IMG/VR virus record: IMGVR_UViG_3300044858_000047
Location: 1 to 23,320 of that record
Source of the DNA: a virus
Length of the DNA stretch: 23,320 nt
Reading direction: 5' to 3' (one strand)
Shown: positions 636 to 23,320 of the stretch, piece by piece
Numbering within the stretch: the stretch's first letter is position 1
Layout: every line of letters starts with the position of its first letter
Notes under the pieces: generated by a model
Databases searched by the model: none
Told to the model about the DNA's origin: nothing
What the model saw: the letters and a program-made list of their open reading frames with translations, nothing else
Made by a program: the position numbers and the translations under genes

Positions 636-2309
636 TTACTGTGTCTCAAAACCTACGAATCTACCACCGCTTGGCGCTGGTGCAGGCGCAGCCGCACTAC
701 CCATCTGTCTGTTCAACGCTTGCTGCAAGTACTTATTAAATATTTCCTGATACTTAGCCGGGTTTTTCATCAACTCCGCCTTTAGCATCGGGTTAGCTGC
801 CATCTCGGCCTTGATTGCGTTGGTAGCGTTATCCCAAGCCACATTGTACGGATCAAGCCTAGCGCCACCGACTGACCTATATGCGTCGGCTTGAATTCTA
901 GCCCGCTTCTCCGCAGCTATATCACCCATACGCTGCTTCTCAAGTTCAGCCCCAACTTGGAATTGAACCTGTCTGTCACGTGCATAAATCTGGTTCTGGT
1001 TGTTGACGATGTCCGCAGCGGTCTTGAGGTCGGTATTAAACGCTGTTGCAATACCTTCAATCTTTGTTTTTTCAAGATTAAGCTCGGCTTCTGCTGCTTT
1101 CTCTCTGAATGTGTTTGCTTCCTTCCAATCGCCACGAGCTTCAGCACGACGTGCTTCTTCAATCGCAGCGGCTTGACGACGGCGCTCTTTGGCAGCTTCT
1201 TCTAACTTCTCCAGACCTGCCTGATACTGTTTAGTGCCGACCTGCGCACCTTCAGCGATGTTCTGGATGGCGTACTGTGACTTACCGCCAGCGATTGCCA
1301 GACCCGCATTGATCAGCGCCATGTTGAGGTTACGAGACTCTTTGCCTTTGGCTTCGCCTTCCTCTTTTTCCAGCAGCTTCTCCAGACCCTCCATAGCCTT
1401 GCCCTGCGGCTTGGTGCGCTCGCGTTCTTCAGCTAACTCTTCAAACCTACCTTTTAGACGGCTACCTAACTCATCGTACTGCGCACCGACATCAGGACGC
1501 ATACCTTTTACACGCTCAATTTCTGCTGCGAGATCACCTTCTTTACCCGGCGTGAACGTAGGTAATGCTGCAATACCGGAAGGCTCTTCTTTAGTAGCAG
1601 CTTTACCAGCGCCTTTACCGGCACTTTTACCAGCGCCTTTGCCTGCGGATGGTGTACGTGCATCAACAAACTTCGGTGCTTCAGGGGAAGACGTAAGCTG
1701 CTCTGTGGGTGTCAGTGCGCCTGCTGCGCCAAAGTCCTGACCTTTATAGCCGCCACCGCCAACGTCCAACGCTTCTTTACGCAGGCGCTCCAACGACTCT
1801 GGCGCTTGCTCATACGCAAAAATGCCGGGACGCTCTTGCTTGCCATACCGGATAAGTGGTGTTTTGCTCTCGAACGGTATCTGCTGCACGTTCTCCCACC
1901 AGTTACCGACACGCTCTTTCATACGACCAAAGTCAGGCAAGTAGCTACGCAGCTTCTCATTACGCAAGCGGTCAAGTTCTTCCTGTTGTGCGGCAGTCAA
2001 CCCGCCCGGAGCAAACGCAACGATGCCGCCATCGGCATACTCTTGCTGGACAGGCAGGTTCATGATGCCGACGTTCTCGGGGAGCATGGCAACTTTTTGC
2101 TCCATCTGCTCTTTAACCGATGGCTCTTGTGGACGTTGTGCAGCTTCTTGTCCTTTGGCTGCATCGACCATCGGTTTTTTGATTTGCAGCGCCATCATGG
2201 CTGCGGCTTGCGGGATGGAGTTATCCTTGCCGCGCATGACTTCTACCAAACGCTCAACCGGATAACGCATTGCCGCCTCAAAGTAGGCGTTGATGTTTGC
2301 GCCAATCAT
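636..2309 (-). CDS. Coiled-coil putative internal virion protein
   Basis: A 557-residue protein overlapping the Gln-rich gene by four bases. Residues 1-60 are helical (AMRYPVERLVEVMRGKDNSI, then PQAAAMMALQIKK). YADGGIVAFAPGG at 91-103 is a motif I recall from many phage internal proteins. Residues 221-240 are SAGKGAGKSAGKGAGKAATK, a Lys/Ala/Gly tract like a histone tail. From about 255 to 460 it is a long charged coiled coil with MALINAGLAIAGGKSQYAIQ in it. The C-terminus is Pro/Ala-rich and ends GRFVGFETQ. No enzyme domain is seen. It likely forms part of the internal core that is ejected into the host; inferred from context. Confidence 0.6.
   Translation of the reverse strand: MIGANINAYFEAAMRYPVERLVEVMRGKDNSIPQAAAMMALQIKKPMVDAAKGQEAAQRPQEPSVKEQMEQKVAMLPENVGIMNLPVQQEYADGGIVAFAPGGLTAAQQEELDRLRNEKLRSYLPDFGRMKERVGNWWENVQQIPFESKTPLIRYGKQERPGIFAYEQAPESLERLRKEALDVGGGGYKGQDFGAAGALTPTEQLTSSPEAPKFVDARTPSAGKGAGKSAGKGAGKAATKEEPSGIAALPTFTPGKEGDLAAEIERVKGMRPDVGAQYDELGSRLKGRFEELAEERERTKPQGKAMEGLEKLLEKEEGEAKGKESRNLNMALINAGLAIAGGKSQYAIQNIAEGAQVGTKQYQAGLEKLEEAAKERRRQAAAIEEARRAEARGDWKEANTFREKAAEAELNLEKTKIEGIATAFNTDLKTAADIVNNQNQIYARDRQVQFQVGAELEKQRMGDIAAEKRARIQADAYRSVGGARLDPYNVAWDNATNAIKAEMAANPMLKAELMKNPAKYQEIFNKYLQQALNRQMGSAAAPAPAPSGGRFVGFETQ
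1590..1649 (-). repeat. Lys/Ala/Gly tract of AGKG/AGKS units
   Basis: A short internal repeat in the coiled-coil gene, coding alternating GAGK and SAGK tetrads over 20 residues. At DNA level it repeats the plus-strand word CCAGCGCCTTT with small changes. Confidence 0.7.
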
Positions 2310-3667
2310 GCTGTCTTCCTCATCACGTTTTGCACAGCCAACTCAGCCAGACCTGCCGGAGCTTTCTCCATGTGATCATCAACGCTGCCACCCTCTGCAA
2401 TCTTGATCATCGGGTTAGAGCCGCCAAAGAGACCATAACCTGCCAGACCTAGACCGGCTATCTGCGACAACGCGGAAGGCGGCGCTTGATACATCTGGTA
2501 TGAAGTCTGTGACAACGGACCACCACGCAGGATGTCGGACATGAACGACAACTGCTGTTGCTGATAGCCACGCTGATTGAGGAAGTCTTGATAAGCCTGA
2601 TCCAACGCCGCCTGATCTCGGGCGGTCATCTGTGAGCCTGCTTTTGCCTGCGCTTCGGCTGCGGCGGCTTGCTGACCAAACTGTTGCTGACCTAACTGAC
2701 CCAACTGACCTGCCGCAGCAAGCTGTTGCTGAATACCCTGCATACCATAACCGGCACCAAACTGACGTGACTGCTCGGCGGCGCGTTGTGCGTCCATAAA
2801 CGCTTGCTGATTAGCCAACTGCGCTTGCATACCAGTTTGTGCACCCAGCTGCTGTACACCAAGTAATGCCTGCAAGTTCTGACCGCCCGCAGTAAGTCCT
2901 GCTTGTTGATTAGCCAACTGCGCACGTAGACGAGCATCTTGCTCTGCATTGAACTGCTGTACGGCCTGTTGATAAGCGGACTGACCACCACGCGCTTGAA
3001 TGTCGCCTAACTGCTGTGCCAAGTTACGCTGACGTTCTGCTTCTACAATTGCTGAACGCGCTCCGCCAAACGCACCTTGTCTAACCGCTTGCCCTTGTAG
3101 CTGTTGCCCCAGAATGTCAGAAGCACGGGTAGCCTCACGCTTTTCAATATCAGTTACTGCTTGCTGATACGGCGACATGTAAGCACCCGCCATACCCGGA
3201 CGTGTAAAACTTTGCGTACGAACTCTTTCAGGGCCGCCTAGCTGATACTGCTGTAGCTGTGGGGCATTAACACCCATCGCGGTGAAGCTGCTGGGTTGAT
3301 AATTTGCCTCTCCAGCGCGAAGACCGGCAAGTCCAGCCATCTGCGTTGCAGTGCCCAACTGTTGTGCAGGGCCAAGATTGGCAATATTTTGGTATGACTG
3401 TTGTTGTAGTGGGCTGAACTCAGCTACACGCTGCCCGCCGTAGGCTTGATAAGGGGCACTCGTTAGCGCCTCGGCTTTACCCAGCATGCGTTCGACATAC
3501 GGCTTGGCATACTCAGGAATTGTCGTGGTGACGTTGGTAGTGTTCGTGGGCTGCGGCGGGGGGCTACCACCACCATGTAGCTTGATCTTGCCACCTTCTT
3601 TTTTGAACGCATCAGCAGGCAGATCAGGTATGCCCAGCAGTGCCATTGAACGGTCATTAAATCTCAT
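2306..3667 (-). CDS. Gln-rich putative internal virion protein
   Basis: A 453-residue protein. I use the ATG at 3667: AGGAG is 7 bases upstream and the start overlaps the GNAT-like stop (ATGA); a longer reading lies inside that gene. After MRFNDRSMALLGIPDLPADA it has PEYAKPYVERMLGKAEALTS and APYQAYGGQRVAEFSPLQQQ, then a very long Gln/Ala-rich helical core (QQLGDIQARGGQSAYQQAVQ). A Gly/Leu segment (SALSQIAGLGLAGYGLFGG) near the end may be amphipathic or membrane-seeking. KIAEGGSVDDHM follows, with a GG motif like its neighbours. Such proteins are typical ejection-protein candidates in short-tailed phages. Role inferred. Confidence 0.6.
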   Translation of the reverse strand: MRFNDRSMALLGIPDLPADAFKKEGGKIKLHGGGSPPPQPTNTTNVTTTIPEYAKPYVERMLGKAEALTSAPYQAYGGQRVAEFSPLQQQSYQNIANLGPAQQLGTATQMAGLAGLRAGEANYQPSSFTAMGVNAPQLQQYQLGGPERVRTQSFTRPGMAGAYMSPYQQAVTDIEKREATRASDILGQQLQGQAVRQGAFGGARSAIVEAERQRNLAQQLGDIQARGGQSAYQQAVQQFNAEQDARLRAQLANQQAGLTAGGQNLQALLGVQQLGAQTGMQAQLANQQAFMDAQRAAEQSRQFGAGYGMQGIQQQLAAAGQLGQLGQQQFGQQAAAAEAQAKAGSQMTARDQAALDQAYQDFLNQRGYQQQQLSFMSDILRGGPLSQTSYQMYQAPPSALSQIAGLGLAGYGLFGGSNPMIKIAEGGSVDDHMEKAPAGLAELAVQNVMRKTA

Positions 3668-4068
3668 AATTTTGCTCCTGCAACTCGGTACTTTTCTTTC
3701 AGTCCGAACCTCTGCCAAAGCCGGGTAGCAGACTCCCGCGATGCACACTCAATATAGGTAGCACCAAATGCTTTTAGTAAGTCCGTAAACTGCGCGTAGG
3801 TCTCATGACCCGTAATTAACTTACCGCCCATTGTTACAACAAACGCTACGCGATCTGAAGGTCGGTTGTAGAACTGCACTGTTGCAGCTCCAACAACATT
3901 ATCTTCATCGTCTACTGCAACAAACAAAGTCCATGTGCCATTACTGACATACACCTGTGCATGTTCTAACGTGTAGTCATCCTGATACTCAAGCGCGACT
4001 TCAATAAAATAGGCAACCTGCGGCCATATTTGATTTACATAATTAATGTCTACGTGCTGTATTCTCAT
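3664..4068 (-). CDS. GNAT-like acetyltransferase-fold protein
   Basis: A 134-residue protein overlapping the 629-residue gene by four bases. The pattern fits a small GNAT fold: an N-terminal VNQIWPQVAYFIEVALEYQ, then WTLFVAVDDEDNVVGAATVQ (typical beta-bulge strand pair), a DRVAFVVTMGGKLITGHETY stretch, TDLLKAFGATYIECASRE and LWQRFGLKEKYRVAG. A classic Q/R-x-x-G-x-G/A acetyl-CoA loop is not clearly seen, so the enzyme may be inactive or use another loop. GNAT-like genes of this size occur in phage structural operons; the substrate is unknown. It lies among internal virion genes and might modify a virion or host protein. Its stop overlaps the next gene. Confidence 0.6.
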   Translation of the reverse strand: MRIQHVDINYVNQIWPQVAYFIEVALEYQDDYTLEHAQVYVSNGTWTLFVAVDDEDNVVGAATVQFYNRPSDRVAFVVTMGGKLITGHETYAQFTDLLKAFGATYIECASRESATRLWQRFGLKEKYRVAGAKL

Positions 4069-5954
4069 GCAGGCAAATGTTTATCTGCTTTAGTGTTTGC
4101 AGCTATTTTATTTTTACCAACCGTCTTACCCCGCGCCTTCTGCACTCGATCCATCATGGCGTACAGCTTGCGAGCACCCGCTTCAGTTGAACCGTTACCC
4201 AGTTCAGACACGATACGCGCTGGGATTACAAATTCACCATCAGCAAGACGAGCAGGTTGGCGGTTGCCAATAACAGCAGGAATAGAATCAGAAACTCCAT
4301 CGCCGGGTCCTTTCAGTAGACGACCGCCATCGGAATAGCCACCAAGGTCAGACACACCACCGCCTGCGGCGTAGCCAGCTTGCTCAGCCAGCCTGCGGTT
4401 CATCATCGGGTAGAACTCGGTCAAGCCAAGCCGCTCTTCTGGCGTTTGATATGCAGGGATATTGAGCGGTGCCATTTGTCTTTGTGGCATGAGTGCAGCA
4501 ATACCGGGGCCACCAACGGGAGGGGCAATACCACCAGCAGTCTTAGGTCCTGTGTACAGTGCAGGTAAGTTTTTATTTGTGGTATCTGCGTAACGCGGCG
4601 CACTTAGCTGCGTCATCGTAAATGTTTTAGGATCGTACGAGTACTTGTACTCGCCTTCCATTTTTGGTTCTTTCGTATCGCCACCCGAAGCAAACTTTTG
4701 TTCACCGCTATATGCACCAACTGCTGGCTCGCCGCTTGGCGAAAGTACGTTTACAGCTTCAGGACGCTGCACCAAAGGATTTGAGTACAAAGGTGTTTGT
4801 AGTTGTGCCTGTGGATACATCATGTTGCTACCCACAGCGTTCATTGCGGACATTGTTTCAACTGGACCGCCAACTGCCAACCCCATAATGCCGCCTTCTG
4901 CTGCTTTGACTGGCTCTAGCGCAGTAAACGTCGGGTCAAAGTACAACTGCTCTCGTGAGTCTGTGGTCGGACTGGTTGCGTAAGCCGCCATGTTGGGGTT
5001 GTACGCAAACTCGTACGGGCGGATCATGCCCTTGTCTTGTACAGGCTGTTTAGGTTTTGGTTGTAGCGCGTTGTACGCCATGTATGCCGCGCCTGCTGAA
5101 GCGTATGGGTGCTCTTCTAAATAGTCTTTCGCCCCTTGTAAGCTTGGGTTTTTTACTAGGTTCTTAAAGTTTTGCAAAAAATTAGCGCCGCGTTCAATCG
5201 GCGTAACGGACCCCGGAACTAACGGAACTTGTGTAGTGCTGACAGGTAAACCAGATGTTACGTTTGGAATTGCTGGACCCCCCGCTACATTGCCATACGT
5301 GGCTGCGGGCAAATTAGAGGTAACGTTGGGCAGCGCAGCGCCTTCGGTAAACGTATTTAGATAAGGCGCTTCTGCCACAGGTTTGAACGCAAGCGAATCC
5401 GCCCGTCCTGCTAGTTTTGGACCTAACTGCGTTAGGTTTTGTCCCAATCCTTGACGGCTGAATTCAGCTAGTACTTGGTTTTGCCCTAACACGTTTGGTG
5501 CAACTTGTGAAACTGATGGCAATACTGATTGCATGCCGCCCAACGGACTCATACCAGCAGTTTGGAACAATCCCGGCGCAGCTTTTGTAGCTGTAGGAGC
5601 AAACGAAGACAATCCGCCCAACGCTGGAGATGCTTTAGCAAAGATACCGGGCGCAGCAGGAGTAAACGAAGACAGCCCACCCAACGCAGGTGCGGCTTTA
5701 GCAAAGATACCGGCAGTCGGCGCAACGGCGGAAGGCAACGCACCCAGAATACCCGGCGCGGCTAGGTTGGCTCCTGCGTAAGACAGGGCTGGCATCGCGG
5801 CCATTGCACCACCACCCAGCGCGGTACCAGCAGTTATGCCCGCACCGAGTGCACCCGAAGCACTTGCAGCAACTCCAGCTTTAGCTAAAGCGGCAGCACC
5901 GGCGGTTGCGCCTACAGTGCCTGCACCGGCAGCAAGAGGGGCTAAAAAGGCCAT
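4065..5954 (-). CDS. Large Ala/Gly-rich putative internal virion protein (LADGEFVIPA type)
   Basis: A 629-residue protein. The first 60 residues are almost all Ala, Gly and small residues (LAAGAGTVGATAGAAALAKA and more), a possible membrane-active or flexible segment. Residues 82-123 are two tandem 21-residue repeats (GIFAKAAPALGGLSSF type). The middle is Pro/Asn-rich. Near 352-363 comes AAEGGIMGLAVGG. From about 543 the C-terminal domain reads GGRLLKGPGDGVSDSIPAVI and ends with ARLADGEFVIPARIVSELGN and AGARKLYAMMDRVQKAR. I recall this last domain as very frequent in environmental phages. Place in the block after the nozzle gene fits an ejected internal protein; that role is inferred. Confidence 0.65.
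   Translation of the reverse strand: MAFLAPLAAGAGTVGATAGAAALAKAGVAASASGALGAGITAGTALGGGAMAAMPALSYAGANLAAPGILGALPSAVAPTAGIFAKAAPALGGLSSFTPAAPGIFAKASPALGGLSSFAPTATKAAPGLFQTAGMSPLGGMQSVLPSVSQVAPNVLGQNQVLAEFSRQGLGQNLTQLGPKLAGRADSLAFKPVAEAPYLNTFTEGAALPNVTSNLPAATYGNVAGGPAIPNVTSGLPVSTTQVPLVPGSVTPIERGANFLQNFKNLVKNPSLQGAKDYLEEHPYASAGAAYMAYNALQPKPKQPVQDKGMIRPYEFAYNPNMAAYATSPTTDSREQLYFDPTFTALEPVKAAEGGIMGLAVGGPVETMSAMNAVGSNMMYPQAQLQTPLYSNPLVQRPEAVNVLSPSGEPAVGAYSGEQKFASGGDTKEPKMEGEYKYSYDPKTFTMTQLSAPRYADTTNKNLPALYTGPKTAGGIAPPVGGPGIAALMPQRQMAPLNIPAYQTPEERLGLTEFYPMMNRRLAEQAGYAAGGGVSDLGGYSDGGRLLKGPGDGVSDSIPAVIGNRQPARLADGEFVIPARIVSELGNGSTEAGARKLYAMMDRVQKARGKTVGKNKIAANTKADKHLPA
5586..5711 (-). repeat. Tandem 63-base repeat (2 copies) in the 629-residue gene
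   Basis: Two adjacent 63-base units encode GIFAKAAPALGGLSSFTPAA plus P, and GIFAKASPALGGLSSFAPTA plus T. The copies differ mainly at third positions. Weaker copies may continue on either side. Confidence 0.75.
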
Positions 5955-17368: not shown

Positions 17369-18084
17369 GGGTTGACCTTAATCTTTGCCTGACCGTCGCG
17401 GTAAGCATCACCACGCTCCAGACCTGTACCCAGACGATTGAGCTGTCCAAGCGCCTCTTGGTACTTCTTCTCGTACTGAGCGATCATATCTACTTCGCCC
17501 TTCAAGAAGGTGTACGCCTCAACCAAGGTGCCATACAACAACACCGGCGAGTAGTTGTCGCCCAGCCACGTGCGTCCATCAGCAGCTACTGTGATTGACT
17601 CAGGGTAGTAGTAATAATGCAACTCGACGTTGTACAGGATGTCAGGAGTTGGGCCTAGAATGAAGCTGAGTTCATCCGTGATGGTGCTAGATATAACAGT
17701 CGGACCAAATAGTGCGTAGTACTTTGGGATACCCGTCTCGTTCGGATTTGGGTATGCCGCACGAATAAAGTTCACATCTTTGTTCAACAAGTACTCGTAG
17801 TTACCACTAGCGTCAATTACCGCCATCGAGAAGACTGACAAGAAATCAGTCGGACAGGACAAGTACTTATTACCGCCGGTAGTTATACCCGTTACGTTCT
17901 TGCGGAGTGCAGGAATCTGCACCGTGTTATAAACGCGCTCTTCAGCCTGCTGGATGAACAAGTCAATCTGCTCAGTCCCATCAGACGTGGTTGTACCGGT
18001 CCCTGCGACGTTCGTCCACGTGTTTGTGGGGAAATCGTTTTGCAGGTAGTCCTTAACCGCAATGAACAGCTCGTTATAAGTCAC
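17365..18084 (-). CDS. Phage head-tail adaptor (SU10-adaptor-like)
   Basis: A 239-residue protein with a GTG start at 18084, supported by GAGG 6 bases upstream. It begins with helical TYNELFIAVKDYLQND and continues LFIQQAEERVYNTVQIPALR, YLSCPTDFLSVFSMAVID, and a C-terminal helical half with VLLYGTLVEAYTFLKGE and YEKKYQEALGQL. This order matches, from memory, the adaptor family described in SU10-like podophages, which binds the portal and joins the tail nozzle. It would act as a dodecameric ring. The stop overlaps the next ATG (ATGA). Two adaptor-like genes in one cluster may mean one is a tail-accessory ring; which one contacts the portal cannot be told here. Confidence 0.7.
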   Translation of the reverse strand: MTYNELFIAVKDYLQNDFPTNTWTNVAGTGTTTSDGTEQIDLFIQQAEERVYNTVQIPALRKNVTGITTGGNKYLSCPTDFLSVFSMAVIDASGNYEYLLNKDVNFIRAAYPNPNETGIPKYYALFGPTVISSTITDELSFILGPTPDILYNVELHYYYYPESITVAADGRTWLGDNYSPVLLYGTLVEAYTFLKGEVDMIAQYEKKYQEALGQLNRLGTGLERGDAYRDGQAKIKVNP

Positions 18085-18092
18085 GGTTCACC

Positions 18093-18284
18093 TCAACCCA
18101 TCGGGCCTCGTGCCATTGTGCCCTTAGTAGCCGCGCCGGTACCACGAATCTTGATGCCAGTCGTCTTGGGTGCCTTGAAGTTGCCTTTGCTGATACCCGC
18201 AGCTATGTTCATCTCGTTCATGTAGTCAGCACCGTTCTGGGTCTTGACCTCAGCCTTTTGTGGTGCCGGTTTGATCTTCTCCAT
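18093..18284 (-). CDS. Small protein with IRGTGAATKGTMARGPMG tail
   Basis: A 63-residue protein; AGGAGG is 6 bases before the ATG, which shares one base with the previous stop (TAATG). The N-terminal half is ordinary and polar; the C-terminal half ends GIKIRGTGAATKGTMARGPM plus G. I recall KIRGTGAATKG-type endings in small proteins of several phages. The ATKGTM piece resembles the ATKGKTKGTM of the 135-residue protein. Such a recurring basic tail looks like a short binding peptide, but the partner is not known. The gene sits just ahead of the adaptor gene. Confidence 0.65.
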   Translation of the reverse strand: MEKIKPAPQKAEVKTQNGADYMNEMNIAAGISKGNFKAPKTTGIKIRGTGAATKGTMARGPMG

Positions 18285-18466
18285 TACTTGCCTCCTTGGT
18301 TCTTCACTCGCGCCATATTGCGACCCATACTCTTTAGCATCTCATTAGTCACGCCGCCCTTCGCCATTTTCTTGGCTCCGTGCATACGCTGTTCATGGCC
18401 TTTGACCGCCTTTTTAGCAACCTTTTCCATCATTGGCTTGTCTTTTTTAATGTCTGAGTGTTTCAT
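18284..18466 (-). CDS. Small basic protein (KKMAKGGVT motif)
   Basis: A 60-residue protein with AGGAG 6 bases before its ATG. It reads MKHSDIKKDKPMMEKVAKKA, then HEQRMHGAKKMAKGG, and ends NMARVKNQGGK. Lys and Met are abundant and there is no hydrophobic core, so it may be unfolded on its own. KKMAKGG also occurs in the 135-residue protein at 21050-21457, linking it to the same pool of small head-region proteins. It ends in a TAATG junction with the next gene. Function unknown. Confidence 0.65.
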   Translation of the reverse strand: MKHSDIKKDKPMMEKVAKKAVKGHEQRMHGAKKMAKGGVTNEMLKSMGRNMARVKNQGGK

Positions 18467-18475
18467 GTTTTGCTC

Positions 18476-18898
18476 CTACGAGATAGTTACATTGCCTACT
18501 ACACCAGCAGAAGTCAAAGCATTTGGCGTTAACCCTGCGTCGTTTGCTCTCGATCCACCTACTGGTGCCCAACCCCACTGAATGATTCGGCTACCTTCTG
18601 CTGGTACACCATCCGAGTCTACTGCGGTGCCGGGTGTCACTGTCAACTGTAATCCTGTAGCTCCTGACTGGTAGTAGCTCAAGTCTTTACGGGGATCACG
18701 CAGCGCCTGCGGATCATCTACCGGATACATACCTAACTGCAACTGCGGCTGATCCGGGTCCCAACATGACGGACACACCAGCAAGTTATAGACCTTAGTC
18801 TTGACTACCTGCTTGCGTAACTCCTTGAGTTTGTACCTCTGTCCGCAGCGGTCACACTCCGCAATCGCATGTTTACCAGAGGCAAACCTATTTCCCAT
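18476..18898 (-). CDS. Zinc-ribbon-like phage protein
   Basis: A 140-residue protein that starts in a TGATG junction with the adaptor-like gene. Residues 15-18 (CDRC) and 42-45 (CPSC) form two CxxC pairs about 24 apart, the spacing of a zinc ribbon; between them lies a basic stretch (KLKELRKQVVKTKVYN). After this come WDPDQPQLQLGMYPVDDPQA and a Gly/Thr-rich beta-like tail ending GVVGNVTIS. I recall the RFASGKHAIAECDRCG opening as common in environmental phages, next to adaptor genes. It may be a small connector component or an assembly factor stabilised by zinc. The metal site is inferred from cysteines only. Confidence 0.7.
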   Translation of the reverse strand: MGNRFASGKHAIAECDRCGQRYKLKELRKQVVKTKVYNLLVCPSCWDPDQPQLQLGMYPVDDPQALRDPRKDLSYYQSGATGLQLTVTPGTAVDSDGVPAEGSRIIQWGWAPVGGSRANDAGLTPNALTSAGVVGNVTIS

Positions 18899-19848
18899 CA
18901 GACACCACCAGTAATGTACTGCTGACGCGGCACCAGACGATCTGCGGCCTTCTCACGGTCTTCGCTTGCTGCCAGCTCCCACGCTTCGTCGTACTGTGAC
19001 TTCAGAACAGGTAGCCTGTCCATCGCGCCGGGTACTTTCAGCGCCAGATAATAGGCCAACCCTGCTGTCAGGCATGGCAAGAAACGAAACGGAATGTCCA
19101 TCGTCTTGGTACCACCACTACCCGCATCCTGCACGCGACGCAGCCGCCAGTAAACGAACTGATATGACGTTGCGGAGTCTGGGGTCGGCCACACAGTAAT
19201 GCTGTTCTTCTGCACCAAATCGATTGCTGCGCTGGTCAAATGGCTTGCTGCGGTTGTGCCGTTCTGCCCACGTACACAGTTCAGCAGATACGCTGGGTTG
19301 CCGTTTGCTGCAGCCTGCGTCTGGTTATAGCCAATCAACTCCGAGCCAATCCGCACGAACCCTGCAAACGGTACACCTTCCAACGACGTGATCGGGATCG
19401 ATGTTGCTAAAGCACTAATAGTGCTCTGGACGGTACCTGCCAGCCGCGAATCTGCACCGGTCATACGCTGAATCCAGACCTGAATTGGTCGGCCTTGGAT
19501 CAACTTGTTTGGGATCGTGGCGTACGTAGAGACGCTTATTCGTGTGATTGTGAGATCGGCTTGGTTGGACGGGATGTTCGCATTAGTACGAATAACATGG
19601 TCCAGTAGATCAACAGTATCGTCAGGAAGTGCATAGGTTGGTTGCCCTTGTACAAGTGGAATGGACAATTGTTCAAATGTCCACATATTCAGACCACGGT
19701 TCGCCCAATCGGCAAACAGCAGGTTCAAGGAGCGCCGCGCCGTGCGCAAGTCATAACCCGTACGCAGTTCGCCACCGGCGCGTTCGAACGCTTCCTCAAC
19801 GATGTCGTTCAGGTCAAGATTGAAACTTGCTGTGCCGGAAGTGGTCAT
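18898..19848 (-). CDS. Head-tail adaptor-like structural protein
   Basis: A 316-residue protein. Residues 10-60 form a helical part (DLNDIVEEAFERAGGELRTG and then YDLRTARRSLNLLFADWANR) ending in NMWT, a layout like phage adaptor/tail-accessory proteins that bind under the portal (P22 gp4 type). A beta part follows with QPTYALPDDTVDLLDHV. Residues about 138-213 hold an inserted module with IGSELIGYN and CVRGQNGTTAASH, also present in the nozzle-like protein at 7384-9522. The C-terminal helix includes LKSQYDEAWELAASEDREKA. No enzyme motif is seen. Position between head genes and the second adaptor supports a connector role. Assignment to the adaptor class is by pattern, not by alignment. Confidence 0.65.
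   Translation of the reverse strand: MTTSGTASFNLDLNDIVEEAFERAGGELRTGYDLRTARRSLNLLFADWANRGLNMWTFEQLSIPLVQGQPTYALPDDTVDLLDHVIRTNANIPSNQADLTITRISVSTYATIPNKLIQGRPIQVWIQRMTGADSRLAGTVQSTISALATSIPITSLEGVPFAGFVRIGSELIGYNQTQAAANGNPAYLLNCVRGQNGTTAASHLTSAAIDLVQKNSITVWPTPDSATSYQFVYWRLRRVQDAGSGGTKTMDIPFRFLPCLTAGLAYYLALKVPGAMDRLPVLKSQYDEAWELAASEDREKAADRLVPRQQYITGGV
19210..19437 (-). other. ELI..GTTAASH beta module in adaptor-like protein
   Basis: This part of the 316-residue protein encodes residues about 138-213. It shares the order hydrophobic strand, ELI-Y, C-V-R-G, GTTAASH with a segment of the 712-residue protein (8683-8865). The same two marker blocks in two proteins of one tail suggest a mobile structural module. 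Confidence 0.65.
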
Positions 19849-20093
19849 TACTTACCTTTATTCCTGTGCGGTGCTACTTTCTTTGCAATCGTCTTCGGCT
19901 GGGCTACGAACTGTTTGCCCGCCTTCTTTCCCGCCCGCTTTGCCCTTGTTGTGGCTGCGTACTCTGCTGGACTCAGCGCTTTGATGGCGCTCTCTGGCAG
20001 GTACCTTTCGCCAGTCTTCGAGGATGGCTTTCCACTCTTTGTCCGCCATTTCTGCTCCGTCCACGCCTTCAGGCTTTGCTGCGGGGCTTTCAT
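19848..20093 (-). CDS. Small conserved basic protein (KWRTKSGKPSSKTGERYLP type)
   Basis: An 81-residue protein whose ATG overlaps the previous stop (ATGA); GGATGAG precedes it. It has the ordered pattern W.E.KWRTKSGKPSSKTGERYLP, then AIKALSPAEYAATTRAKRAG, and a strongly basic end (KTIAKKVAPHR). I recall this as a recurring phage and large-virus family without assigned function. With about a quarter of its residues Lys or Arg and no hydrophobic segment, it may bind DNA or the capsid interior, but nothing in the sequence proves that. It ends exactly at the ATG of the adaptor-like gene, with one shared base. Confidence 0.7.
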   Translation of the reverse strand: MKAPQQSLKAWTEQKWRTKSGKPSSKTGERYLPESAIKALSPAEYAATTRAKRAGKKAGKQFVAQPKTIAKKVAPHRNKGK

Positions 20094-20380
20094 CTCATCC
20101 TGCCTCGTGTCTTACCACGTTGCGCTATACCATCTGCACGGGCTGATGCTGACTTCACAGCACCGCCTTTTTTCATACCGTCCAGTTCAGACAACGCCTT
20201 GCTCATGCGCTCTCTTGGGGGCGGACGTGGCTCGGCTCTGTCTTTCTTGAATTTGCCATCGAGGTCTTTCAAGCCTGCTTGGCTTTCCATCTTGTCAAAC
20301 TCTTCTGGGCTAACGTCCTTGACTTCGCCTCGGGTACGCTTGGCTTCTATCTCTTGAACAAGTTTGCGTAAATCACCCAC
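20090..20380 (-). CDS. Small basic protein with GGAVKSAS..GKTRG tail (GTG start)
   Basis: A 96-residue protein. The frame is open further upstream, but that part overlaps the previous gene; GGAGG lies 5 bases before a GTG at 20380, giving the start MGDLRKLVQEIEAKRTRGEV. The start overlaps the previous stop by 8 bases. The body is a charged helical region (SPEEFDKMESQAGLKDLDG, then a Pro/Arg-rich RPPPRERM), and the last 25 residues repeat the tail of the 125-residue protein (GGAVKSASARADGIAQRGKT, then RGRMR). This looks like a tail duplicated or shuffled between otherwise unrelated small proteins. Function unknown. Confidence 0.65.
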   Translation of the reverse strand: MGDLRKLVQEIEAKRTRGEVKDVSPEEFDKMESQAGLKDLDGKFKKDRAEPRPPPRERMSKALSELDGMKKGGAVKSASARADGIAQRGKTRGRMR

Positions 20381-20660
20381 GGTAGCCTCCGCCCTTTGCT
20401 TTGTACTTCTTCGCCAACAACTGCGCCTTACGGGCGCTCCACTGGCCTGCCGCCGTACCCTGCACCGCTTGGCCTTTGATGCTCTCAAACAGCGACTTAC
20501 GCATGCCCGGCTTGGTGTAATTGCCAGATTCGTTCACGCGAGACTTCGTCTTGCCGCCTTCTTTGTACTGCGTGAAGTCGGTATTATCCCGACGGGCTTG
20601 CTTCTTCCCGCCGGGCATCTTTGACGGGTTGATAGCACCCATCCCGCGTGAGGCTCTCAT
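20373..20660 (-). CDS. Small conserved phage protein (MRASRGMGAINPSKMP type)
   Basis: A 95-residue basic protein starting at the ATG of a TAATG junction; GGGAAGA precedes it by 7 bases. An earlier TTG in frame is rejected because it falls inside the previous gene without a better ribosome site. It begins MRASRGMGAINPSKMPGGKK and ends with GQWSARKAQLLAKKYKAKGG. The stretch ESGNYTKPGMRKSLFESIK followed by GQWSARKAQ..A..YKA.GGGY is a pattern I recall from many environmental phages and from large DNA viruses, without a known function. Its charge suggests nucleic-acid contact. It overlaps the next gene by 8 bases. Confidence 0.7.
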   Translation of the reverse strand: MRASRGMGAINPSKMPGGKKQARRDNTDFTQYKEGGKTKSRVNESGNYTKPGMRKSLFESIKGQAVQGTAAGQWSARKAQLLAKKYKAKGGGYRG

Positions 20661-21037
20661 TAGCAAATCTTCCCGCGAGTTTTACCACGTTGCGCGATAC
20701 CGTCAGCACGAGAAGAAGCGGATTTAACTGCGCCGCCTTTTTTGTAGCCTTTAACATCCATACGAGCTTTCATTTGCTCATCATCGTCTAGACTGGTCAT
20801 TCGGTTGCTGCCAAAGGCTTTACCAACTGCGCGAACTGCGTCGCCCATCCGGTCAAGACCCTTATCCATATCACCGCTAACTGTGCCGGGCGGATTAAGT
20901 CTAAGTTCTTTTTCGTACTTACGAACTTGTTCGTTATATACCTTTTCACGTTTTCGTTCGGCAGCCGCAGCGTCTGCTTTATTTAAAAGTCTTTTACGCT
21001 CGTCTATATTTTCTTTTGCTTCTTCTCTGTAACCCAT
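20660..21037 (-). CDS. Small coiled-coil protein with GGAVKSAS..GKTRG tail
   Basis: A 125-residue protein. AGGAGG lies 5 bases before the ATG at 21037; a GTG directly before it is too close to that site. The N-terminal half is a charged helix (REEAKENIDERKRLLNKADA and onward), probably coiled coil. The middle, RMGDAVRAVGKAFGSNRM, looks amphipathic. The last 25 residues, beginning GGAVKSASSRADGIAQRGKT and ending RGKIC, are nearly identical to the tail of the protein encoded at 20090-20380, also at DNA level. The stop overlaps the next start as TAATG. Function is unknown. Confidence 0.65.
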   Translation of the reverse strand: MGYREEAKENIDERKRLLNKADAAAAERKREKVYNEQVRKYEKELRLNPPGTVSGDMDKGLDRMGDAVRAVGKAFGSNRMTSLDDDEQMKARMDVKGYKKGGAVKSASSRADGIAQRGKTRGKIC

Positions 21038-21049
21038 CACGGCCTCCTA

Positions 21050-21457
21050 TCAGCAATACTTCTTAGCCATACCGCCTTTTTTCATGCCGGTAGAGCCTGC
21101 CATCTTGACCATAGTGCCTTTGGTCTTGCCTTTGGTAGCAACGCCGTCACGGCTAGGAGCAGCAGTCTTCACAGCGCCCATCTTCGATGCAGCCATACCG
21201 CCAGCAGCGTAGCCGCCCTTTGCCATCTTCTTCATGCCAGCTTCTTTCATCTCATGTTTGAGCATCGCTTTGGGAGCGCCTTTCTTCTTCATGAAAGCCA
21301 CTTCCTTCTTCATCATTGCCTTGGACTCAGCCATACCGCCTCCTGATTTAGTGAACTCTTTTCCCACAGATTGCGGCACACCGGCCTTCTTAGCGAACGC
21401 AGGGTTGTGGGCAACCGCCTGCATAAACCTTTCCTGCTTTTTGCTGACTGTAGGCAT
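21050..21457 (-). CDS. Lys/Met-rich small protein with GKTKG tail motif
   Basis: A 135-residue very basic protein separated from the previous stop by one base. The N-terminus MPTVSKKQERFMQAVAHNPA followed by FAKKAGVPQSVGKEF is a recognisable phage pattern of unknown function. The rest is low-complexity and rich in Lys, Met, Gly and Ala (KKMAKGGYAAGG at about 76-87). Residues 94-116 hold the motif GAVKTAAPSRDGVATKGKTK, related to the C-terminal tails of the 125- and 96-residue proteins downstream. It ends with cysteine. There are no membrane segments and no catalytic motif. A DNA- or capsid-interacting role is plausible from its charge, but this is inference. Confidence 0.65.
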   Translation of the reverse strand: MPTVSKKQERFMQAVAHNPAFAKKAGVPQSVGKEFTKSGGGMAESKAMMKKEVAFMKKKGAPKAMLKHEMKEAGMKKMAKGGYAAGGMAASKMGAVKTAAPSRDGVATKGKTKGTMVKMAGSTGMKKGGMAKKYC

Positions 21458-21648: not shown

Positions 21649-21903
21649 TCAGCACTTCCAAGCTCTTAAACTTTTGTTAATACGACTGTTCGGGTCATTC
21701 GCGGTCTTGGCTGAAGTCAGCTTCTTCTTCATACCTTTCATCCGCGCACAGAACGAGTCTCTGCGTGGACCACCTTCCGGCTGTGGTGCTTTCAGACCGG
21801 GCTTACCCGGATTGGCTGCGTTATAAGAGGCACGTCCCTTGGCGTTCAAGCCGCCCTTGGGGTTCTTACCTTCCTTGCGCTGCCATGCCGGGGTCTTAGC
21901 CAT
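21649..21903 (-). CDS. Small conserved phage protein (WQRKEGKNPKGGLN type)
   Basis: An 84-residue basic protein. The ATG at 21903 lies inside the end of the previous gene (ATGGCTAA, 8-base overlap), and a longer reading to 21945 lacks phage-like sequence. It starts MAKTPAWQRKEGKNPKGGLN, continues LKAPQPEGGPRRDSFCARM and ends NDPNSRINKSLRAWKC. This pattern (WQRK.G.NP.GGLN, RR.SFCARM.GMKKKLT, DP.SRINKSLR.W.C) is one I remember as a widespread phage family of unknown function. Two cysteines, one at the very C-terminus, are notable. The charge and the lack of hydrophobic segments suggest nucleic-acid or capsid contact, but that is a guess. It belongs to the run of tiny Lys/Arg-rich genes of the head region. 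Confidence 0.7.
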   Translation of the reverse strand: MAKTPAWQRKEGKNPKGGLNAKGRASYNAANPGKPGLKAPQPEGGPRRDSFCARMKGMKKKLTSAKTANDPNSRINKSLRAWKC

Positions 21904-22807: not shown

Positions 22808-23320
22808 TTACGCGCCTTGCGAACCGTACATGCCCAGCGGGTCAGACCAGCCGAACGAGTAACGCTCACGAGCCTTGTAACGGACGTTGCCGGTATCAAA
22901 GTCACCGTCCATTTTTGTATCGAGCGGGATACGAATAAAGTGCTTCATACCGTTCGGTACATCAGTGGTCAAGAACCATGCGTTCGGATCGGTCAGGAAG
23001 TGGTTAATTGCATAACCCTCTGGGATCGAACCATTGTTCTTCAGTGCGTTCACGTCGTTGTCGTTGGTACCAACACGGAGATTGGTTTCCAGCAGGCGAG
23101 TCGCAACGAACTGCAGTGACGGTGGGATGATCAGCTTACGCGGACGTGCAGCGATCAGCAGGCTGCGTTCGTCAGTCCATGCTGCGATCTGGATCACAGC
23201 GTTTTCCAACGAGGTTTCGTTCAGGTCAGCAGCCGTGGTCGGGATGTTGCTGTTGGTGCCGCCAGAAACGAGTGGGTGCGCGTTCGAGAACAATGCCTTG
23301 CCATCGCCACCAGCATAGGA
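22808..23320 (-). CDS. Major capsid protein, C-terminal part (5' end outside window)
   Basis: The frame is open to the window edge, so the N-terminal part is missing; about 170 codons remain. The visible part begins SYAGGDGKALFSNAHPLVSG, and the GDGKALFSNAHP stretch is one I associate with phage major capsid proteins (HK97-fold type). Further on come AAWTDERSLLIAARPRKLI and a C-terminal RYSFGWSDPLGMYGS. An internal TTG could be mistaken for a start, but the frame continues upstream with good coding sense. The protein would form the icosahedral shell. The stop codon is followed within 2 bases by a strong hairpin terminator, which fits a very highly expressed gene given its own transcript end. 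Family assignment is from motif memory; the gene being capsid is supported by its place at the head end of the structural operon. Confidence 0.8.
   Translation of the reverse strand, partial: SYAGGDGKALFSNAHPLVSGGTNSNIPTTAADLNETSLENAVIQIAAWTDERSLLIAARPRKLIIPPSLQFVATRLLETNLRVGTNDNDVNALKNNGSIPEGYAINHFLTDPNAWFLTTDVPNGMKHFIRIPLDTKMDGDFDTGNVRYKARERYSFGWSDPLGMYGSQGA

Follow-up and report, generated by a model that had tools for sequence, protein, structure and literature searches.

The locus analysed here raises the question of why small phage head-region proteins with unrelated N-terminal parts carry the same tail. The window, which is the whole stretch of DNA analysed, comprises 23,320 bases of the IMG/VR virus record IMGVR_UViG_3300044858_000047, with the late genes on the minus strand. 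A first-pass annotation had pointed out three small proteins of 96, 125 and 135 aa, and all three are real genes on the minus strand with ribosome-binding sites. The 96-aa protein (20090..20380) starts with GTG behind a GGAGG site and has relatives in loci L127, L132, L151 and L152; its N-terminal part is unrelated to those of the other tagged proteins. It ends in the class A tag KKGGAVKSASARADGIAQRGKTRGRMR (20093..20173, minus strand, HMM E 1.4e-14). The 125-aa protein (20660..21037) starts with ATG behind AGGAGG, has a helical N-terminal part and a disordered tail and ends in the class A tag KKGGAVKSASSRADGIAQRGKTRGKIC (20663..20743, minus strand, HMM E 2.5e-16). Its AF2 model is helical, with the tail largely of low confidence (pLDDT mostly under 50), and no significant match of this model was found in the PDB. 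The common tail of these two proteins was borne out, as 23/27 residues are alike and the observed score was reached in 0/2000 shuffles. Their N-terminal parts are indeed unrelated, with a likeness at the level of shuffled sequences (p 0.76). For the 135-aa protein (21050..21457), which begins with the N-module MPTVSKKQERFMQAVAHNPAFAKKAGVPQSVGKEF (phrog_16759), the proposed tail match was recovered (E 1.8e-5 in the window), but not its membership of the same class. Its tag variant GAVKTAAPSRDGVATKGKTKGTM (21110..21178, minus strand) is internal, away from the extreme C-terminus, and is followed by KGTMVKMAGSTGMKKGGMAKKYC. Thus, it belongs to a separate class B.

The first two tails had also been reported to match at the DNA level over 62 bases. 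This match is real (50/62), but it adds no independent evidence, since codon positions 1 and 2 account for almost all of it. Identity of the two class A tags was 0.93, 0.96 and 0.37 at codon positions 1, 2 and 3, and the same codon is used at only 9/23 identical residues. Since positions 1 and 2 are alike and position 3 is not, selection acts on the peptide, and a relic or recent duplication as the origin of the tail was ruled out. For the 94 loci with at least two tags, same-codon use at identical residues was 0.434 within a locus, compared with an expectation of 0.376 from local codon usage, and with 0.397 for tags of different loci. The tags are near synonymous saturation within one genome with the peptide kept. 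Hence, the tails are old and held by peptide selection.

In class A proteins the tag KKGGAVKSASxRADGIAQRGKTRGKhh is C-terminal; the computed consensus is xKGGxVxxASxRADGIAQRGKTRGRxx. At least 120 stretches were listed by a search with a degenerate DNA pattern, and at least 532 relatives were confirmed by protein search. Across about 200 related virus loci, 459 distinct proteins (median of tagged proteins 132 aa) were found to carry the tag core. In 307 of them the chain ends exactly three residues past TRG (class A), and in about 130 it ends 9-26 residues past TRG (class B). The N-terminal parts fall into at least 157 unrelated clusters, 108 of these singletons. When 80 of the tagged proteins were aligned, little more than the start Met and the tag was conserved. 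Many of these heads look low-complexity or disordered, and some open with a hydrophobic segment (e.g. L041, L165). No convincing match to known effector or enzyme families and no convincing known domains were detected for the cargo heads. For the tag itself, no family in Pfam or PHROGs covered it above noise and the PDB gave no match beyond chance. The tag strings are unnamed in the literature searched, which largely leaves aside subscription journals and preprints. A tblastn search with the tag and the 125-aa protein against annotated phages returned nothing, probably owing to low-complexity masking; isolate relatives were found via the capsid and stabilisation proteins.

The exchange of heads and tags can be followed in the close relative L127. 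In the slot of the 125-aa gene it carries an unrelated head, joined to tag DNA that is 100% identical to the window. From GYKKGG as far as the stop this identity covers 90 bases, and it runs on into the next gene. Upstream of the swapped head the two sequences are nearly identical as far as the start codon. The next tagged gene of L127, two genes downstream, shows the reverse: the head is 96-97% identical in DNA and the tag is different, with divergence beginning right after MKKGG and the start of the following gene alike again. Across the loci, seven pairs (12 genes) of head swaps with tag DNA at least 95% identical and nine pairs (13 genes) of tag swaps with heads at least 88% identical were identified. 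The breakpoints are KKGG and the start codon. At the level of sequence, this is direct evidence for modular shuffling of heads and tags, and the peptide module shuffled between small head-region proteins that had been suggested for the window is confirmed. With breakpoints at KKGG, the repeated tail could be regarded chiefly as a recombination joint which holds fusions in frame and favours the exchange of cassettes, without a binding role. A joint selected as DNA would keep its third positions, however, and the tags are near synonymous saturation with the peptide kept; this explanation appears very improbable to us.

Which residues the tag tolerates was examined by relaxing one position at a time in 42,802 ORFs of the same loci, because the search pattern itself fixes the core. 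Among 323 canonical tags the core residues D, G, G and T showed 0 variants. At position 7, K is replaced only by R (6), H (4) and F (2), while R and K interchange freely at position 9; specificity therefore exceeds charge. A further position accepts I or C, and the last pair of the tag is hydrophobic. Outside the search pattern, R at -2 (91%), S at -4 (87%) and A at -5 (83%) are conserved. These results bear on the possibility that the tag is an RG-rich, Lys-rich nucleic-acid-binding tail, which would anchor small basic proteins on the packaged genome as a protamine-like condensation set with its specificity from DNA. The tag is strongly basic, the untagged neighbours are also small and basic, and the internal proteins of T4 contact DNA via lysines (PMC3012670). 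However, the invariant D, G, G and T, the preference for K over R and the exact distance to the C-terminus exceed what charge needs, as do I or C at one position and the hydrophobic last pair. The heads are only mildly basic (K+R 18.6%, D+E 13.8%). We consider a nucleic-acid-binding tail unlikely.

Prevalence was determined without bias with relatives chosen by their capsid protein instead of the tag. In the window, the C-terminal 170 aa of the major capsid protein (22808..23320, minus strand) provide the context and the selection marker. The first-pass annotation had named absence of the tails from close relatives as a sign of chance or relic duplication. Such an absence was clearly not observed. 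Of 35 contigs that extend at least 4.5 kb beyond the capsid gene on its downstream side, 32 have the tag, and the remaining three have variants (GKTRA at the end, NGIAVRGKTRG and GGGIESKGKTKG); all are downstream of the capsid gene. No tags were found upstream of it in 343 kb of these relatives. Tag-positive capsid proteins group in a single clade (support 100/99), among them that of the cultured Planktothrix phage Pag-Yong1, whose tagged protein is UMO75986; it also includes two rows scored untagged by the strict pattern, both of which have variants. DSL-LC04, HTVC023P, HTVC027P, 023Pt, CRP-901 and QDWS535 lie outside the clade and are without the tag. A phage gene exclusive to all tag-positive genomes, as a candidate for the receptor, was not found; a receptor must therefore be a shared protein or a host factor.

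The head-region location that had been assigned to the tagged genes was also verified. In the records mapped, they occupy a fixed place between the cement and DUF6321 genes and the adaptor gene, in the conserved order GroES, scaffold, capsid, cement, DUF6321, tagged genes with the 95-aa and 81-aa genes, adaptor, zinc ribbon, 60-aa, 63-aa and connector. Most large records contain 2-5 tags (range 1-5), generally within a single cluster; G009 is an exception with a further tag elsewhere. In the window (all on the minus strand), an untagged basic protein of 95 aa (20373..20660, phrog_17747, with a KEGG motif) is interleaved with the tagged genes, an untagged basic protein of 81 aa (19848..20093, phrog_14910) closes the cluster and the adaptor protein (18898..19848) bounds it. 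The DUF6321 protein (21649..21900) is without a tag here, and in 10 other ORFs the tag is appended past the natural end of the same domain. Taken together, the tail is a modular C-terminal tag that is conserved as a peptide, sits on unrelated proteins, is swapped between them and lies in the head gene block.

Two further tags were found to behave like the DGIAQRGKTRG tag. The 63-aa protein of the window (18093..18284, minus strand), in which the piece ATKGTM had correctly been noticed, ends in a second, different C-terminal tag, RGTGAATKGTMARGPMG (18096..18146, minus strand). Among 87 distinct proteins with this type 2 tag, 81 have exactly 8 further residues behind RGTGAATKG. At most one RGTGAATKG tag was seen per relative examined, downstream of the capsid gene and with variable N-terminal parts. 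The third tag is termed marine after the cultured relatives, not after the sampling sites of the contigs. Its pattern GGAAxRGxxFxG is C-terminal in 89/90 distinct ORFs and always 2 residues from the end; its forms are RGGGAALRGTKFxGVF and, in L437-L516 and L542-L556, RGGGAA[LI]RGTKFxGV. Related marine tails in the same loci belong to 34 clusters of N-terminal parts. Among the contigs found by the marine tag alone, 98/120 encode a portal that is related to the portals of this group; their tagged gene lies mostly between portal and GroES, in the head block. The cultured HTVC023P has two marine-type tails, in gp32 and gp51 (L219:6656-7393 and 17481-17864), and one protein of L442 combines the class B N-module of the window with a marine-type tail.

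The position of the marine equivalents is relevant to a docking function outside the capsid. The tag could attach its proteins to an assembly or tail component, or to a host factor after infection, so that they would not be internal. The tagged cluster lies directly before the adaptor gene, and the hydrophobic start of some heads (L041, L165) would fit as well. The marine equivalents, however, are mostly at the other end of the head block, between portal and GroES, and the x-x-GG motif of the proteins is common to ejection-type proteins. External docking therefore seems rather improbable. The C-terminal position with its hydrophobic end might also suggest a degradation or processing signal. 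The tag sits in the head block, though, its last residues differ between marine and freshwater forms, and known degrons are, to our knowledge, much shorter and less conserved. Hence, such a signal hardly comes into consideration.

The best explanation, whose chances we regard as about even, is that the tail is a virion-targeting tag, most likely for the capsid lumen, of a changeable set of small head proteins. Invariant residues, a fixed distance to the end, unrelated carriers, the head block and the near-universal presence in one capsid clade look like an address read by a receptor, and a different tag in its place in the sister group is also what such an address would look like. As the head is assembled, small late proteins whose set can change would be brought in by their C-terminal tag, most probably into the capsid interior. 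The tag would be read at a single site common to all of them, on a head component (capsid protein, scaffold or portal) that is conserved in this capsid clade, and the head of each protein would be the cargo. The KKGG joint would double as a recombination site between head and tag, so that cargo could be exchanged and the address kept. Against a virion tag it has to be considered that the heads may be structural or DNA-binding proteins instead of effectors, and that the tag is basic like a DNA-binding tail. The earlier suggestion that the tail serves to bind the capsid, DNA or a common partner is an interpretation of the same kind; from the tag and its gene context we infer that tagged proteins enter the virion, that the tag has a binding partner and that cargo is delivered to the host.

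Comparable addresses are known from other systems. The capsid targeting sequence (CTS) of T4 is a short terminal peptide on diverse, exchangeable small head proteins (IPI-III, Alt); it is N-terminal, comprises 10-20 residues and is removed by the prohead protease (PMC3012670, PMC5694885). The tag is likewise a short conserved peptide common to unrelated head proteins (head genes by position), but it is C-terminal and about 20-27 residues long. We know of no sequence similarity between the tag and the T4 CTS. Encapsulin Family 1 targeting peptides with the consensus SDGSLGIGSLKRS load different cargo into an HK97-fold shell (PMC8346489). They are C-terminal peptides on several cargo types as well; the tag, in contrast, is not SDGSLGIGSLKRS-like and concerns a phage head, into which it would load its cargo. 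The tag would work like both, but is a member of neither, differing from the first in position and from the second in sequence.

A wider reading is possible but more doubtful. Aquatic phages of this capsid/portal group might have a general C-terminal address system of at least three tags (freshwater DGIAQRGKTRG, freshwater RGTGAATKG and marine GGGAALRGTKFxGV), each read by a head component of its own lineage and bringing rapidly exchanged cargo into virions, which would deliver it to the host. Should the tag indeed load cargo into virions, it would provide a sequence rule predicting which unknown small proteins of abundant environmental phages enter the particle. Hundreds of orphan proteins would thereby become packaged, possibly injected candidates that can be tested. 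Moreover, the tag would add a portable C-terminal label for packaging to those of T4 and encapsulins, and be a clear example from nature of cassette exchange with address and cargo evolving separately. It would explain how these freshwater phages package a changing set of proteins.

Tagged proteins can be linked to packaged proteins indirectly, through a domain of a multi-module protein, the class B N-module and an aromatic/Met-x-x-GG motif. An untagged 825-aa multi-module protein adjoining terL (L361:1300-3777) was observed, with linkers of the form K.GG..HMA[DE]GG. One of its domains circulates in other loci as a tagged protein of its own. Packaging and injection are assumed for the polyvalent proteins of phages (PMC5512222). 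They are alike in that the domain of a tagged protein is also a module of this large protein beside terL, and different in that their modules are fused in one chain (PMC5512222), whereas separate short proteins are tagged here. The DUF6321/phrog_3477 C-terminal module is a further small basic module, which occurs alone or ends large phage proteins; this 80-aa domain is unrelated to the tag and can itself carry it. The class B N-module was found at the start of a GAP32 protein annotated as virion structural (GAP32_317). The N-module SKKQERFMQAVAHNPAFAKKAGVPQSVGKEF (21340-21457, minus strand) also constitutes a 58-aa protein in phiKZ-like jumbo phages (PA7) and occurs within a 52-aa protein of BUCT555. 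In the untagged 60-aa protein of the window (18284..18466, minus strand) the piece KKMAKGG is present as described. This protein (KHSDIKKDKPMMEK...KKMAKGG) has the module KHEDVK..MMQKAV..HE.R.HKG...KGG in common, as judged by eye, with class B proteins, e.g. of L004 (KHEDVKMDKKMMQK...).

The THAYRNMSQAEY domain of L146 was considered as ADP-ribosyltransferase-like. This reading was not supported, with an AF2 pLDDT of 41 and no match in Pfam or PHROGs; profiles matched PDB entries weakly, chiefly repetitive designed proteins. Among the bacterial genome contigs with matches (15 loci), real tags were seen in the scan only in L201, and the others gave chance matches or none. L201 is a contig in a gammaproteobacterial MAG with several tagged genes, and may be a phage contig binned with its host. 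Finally, the aromatic/Met-x-x-GG motif was counted 11-20 times per genome versus about 3-4 times in shuffled proteins, i.e. it is about 4 to 7 times commoner than in shuffles. It is common to tagged, small head and ejection-type proteins (window 636-2309, 2306-3748 and 4065-5954).
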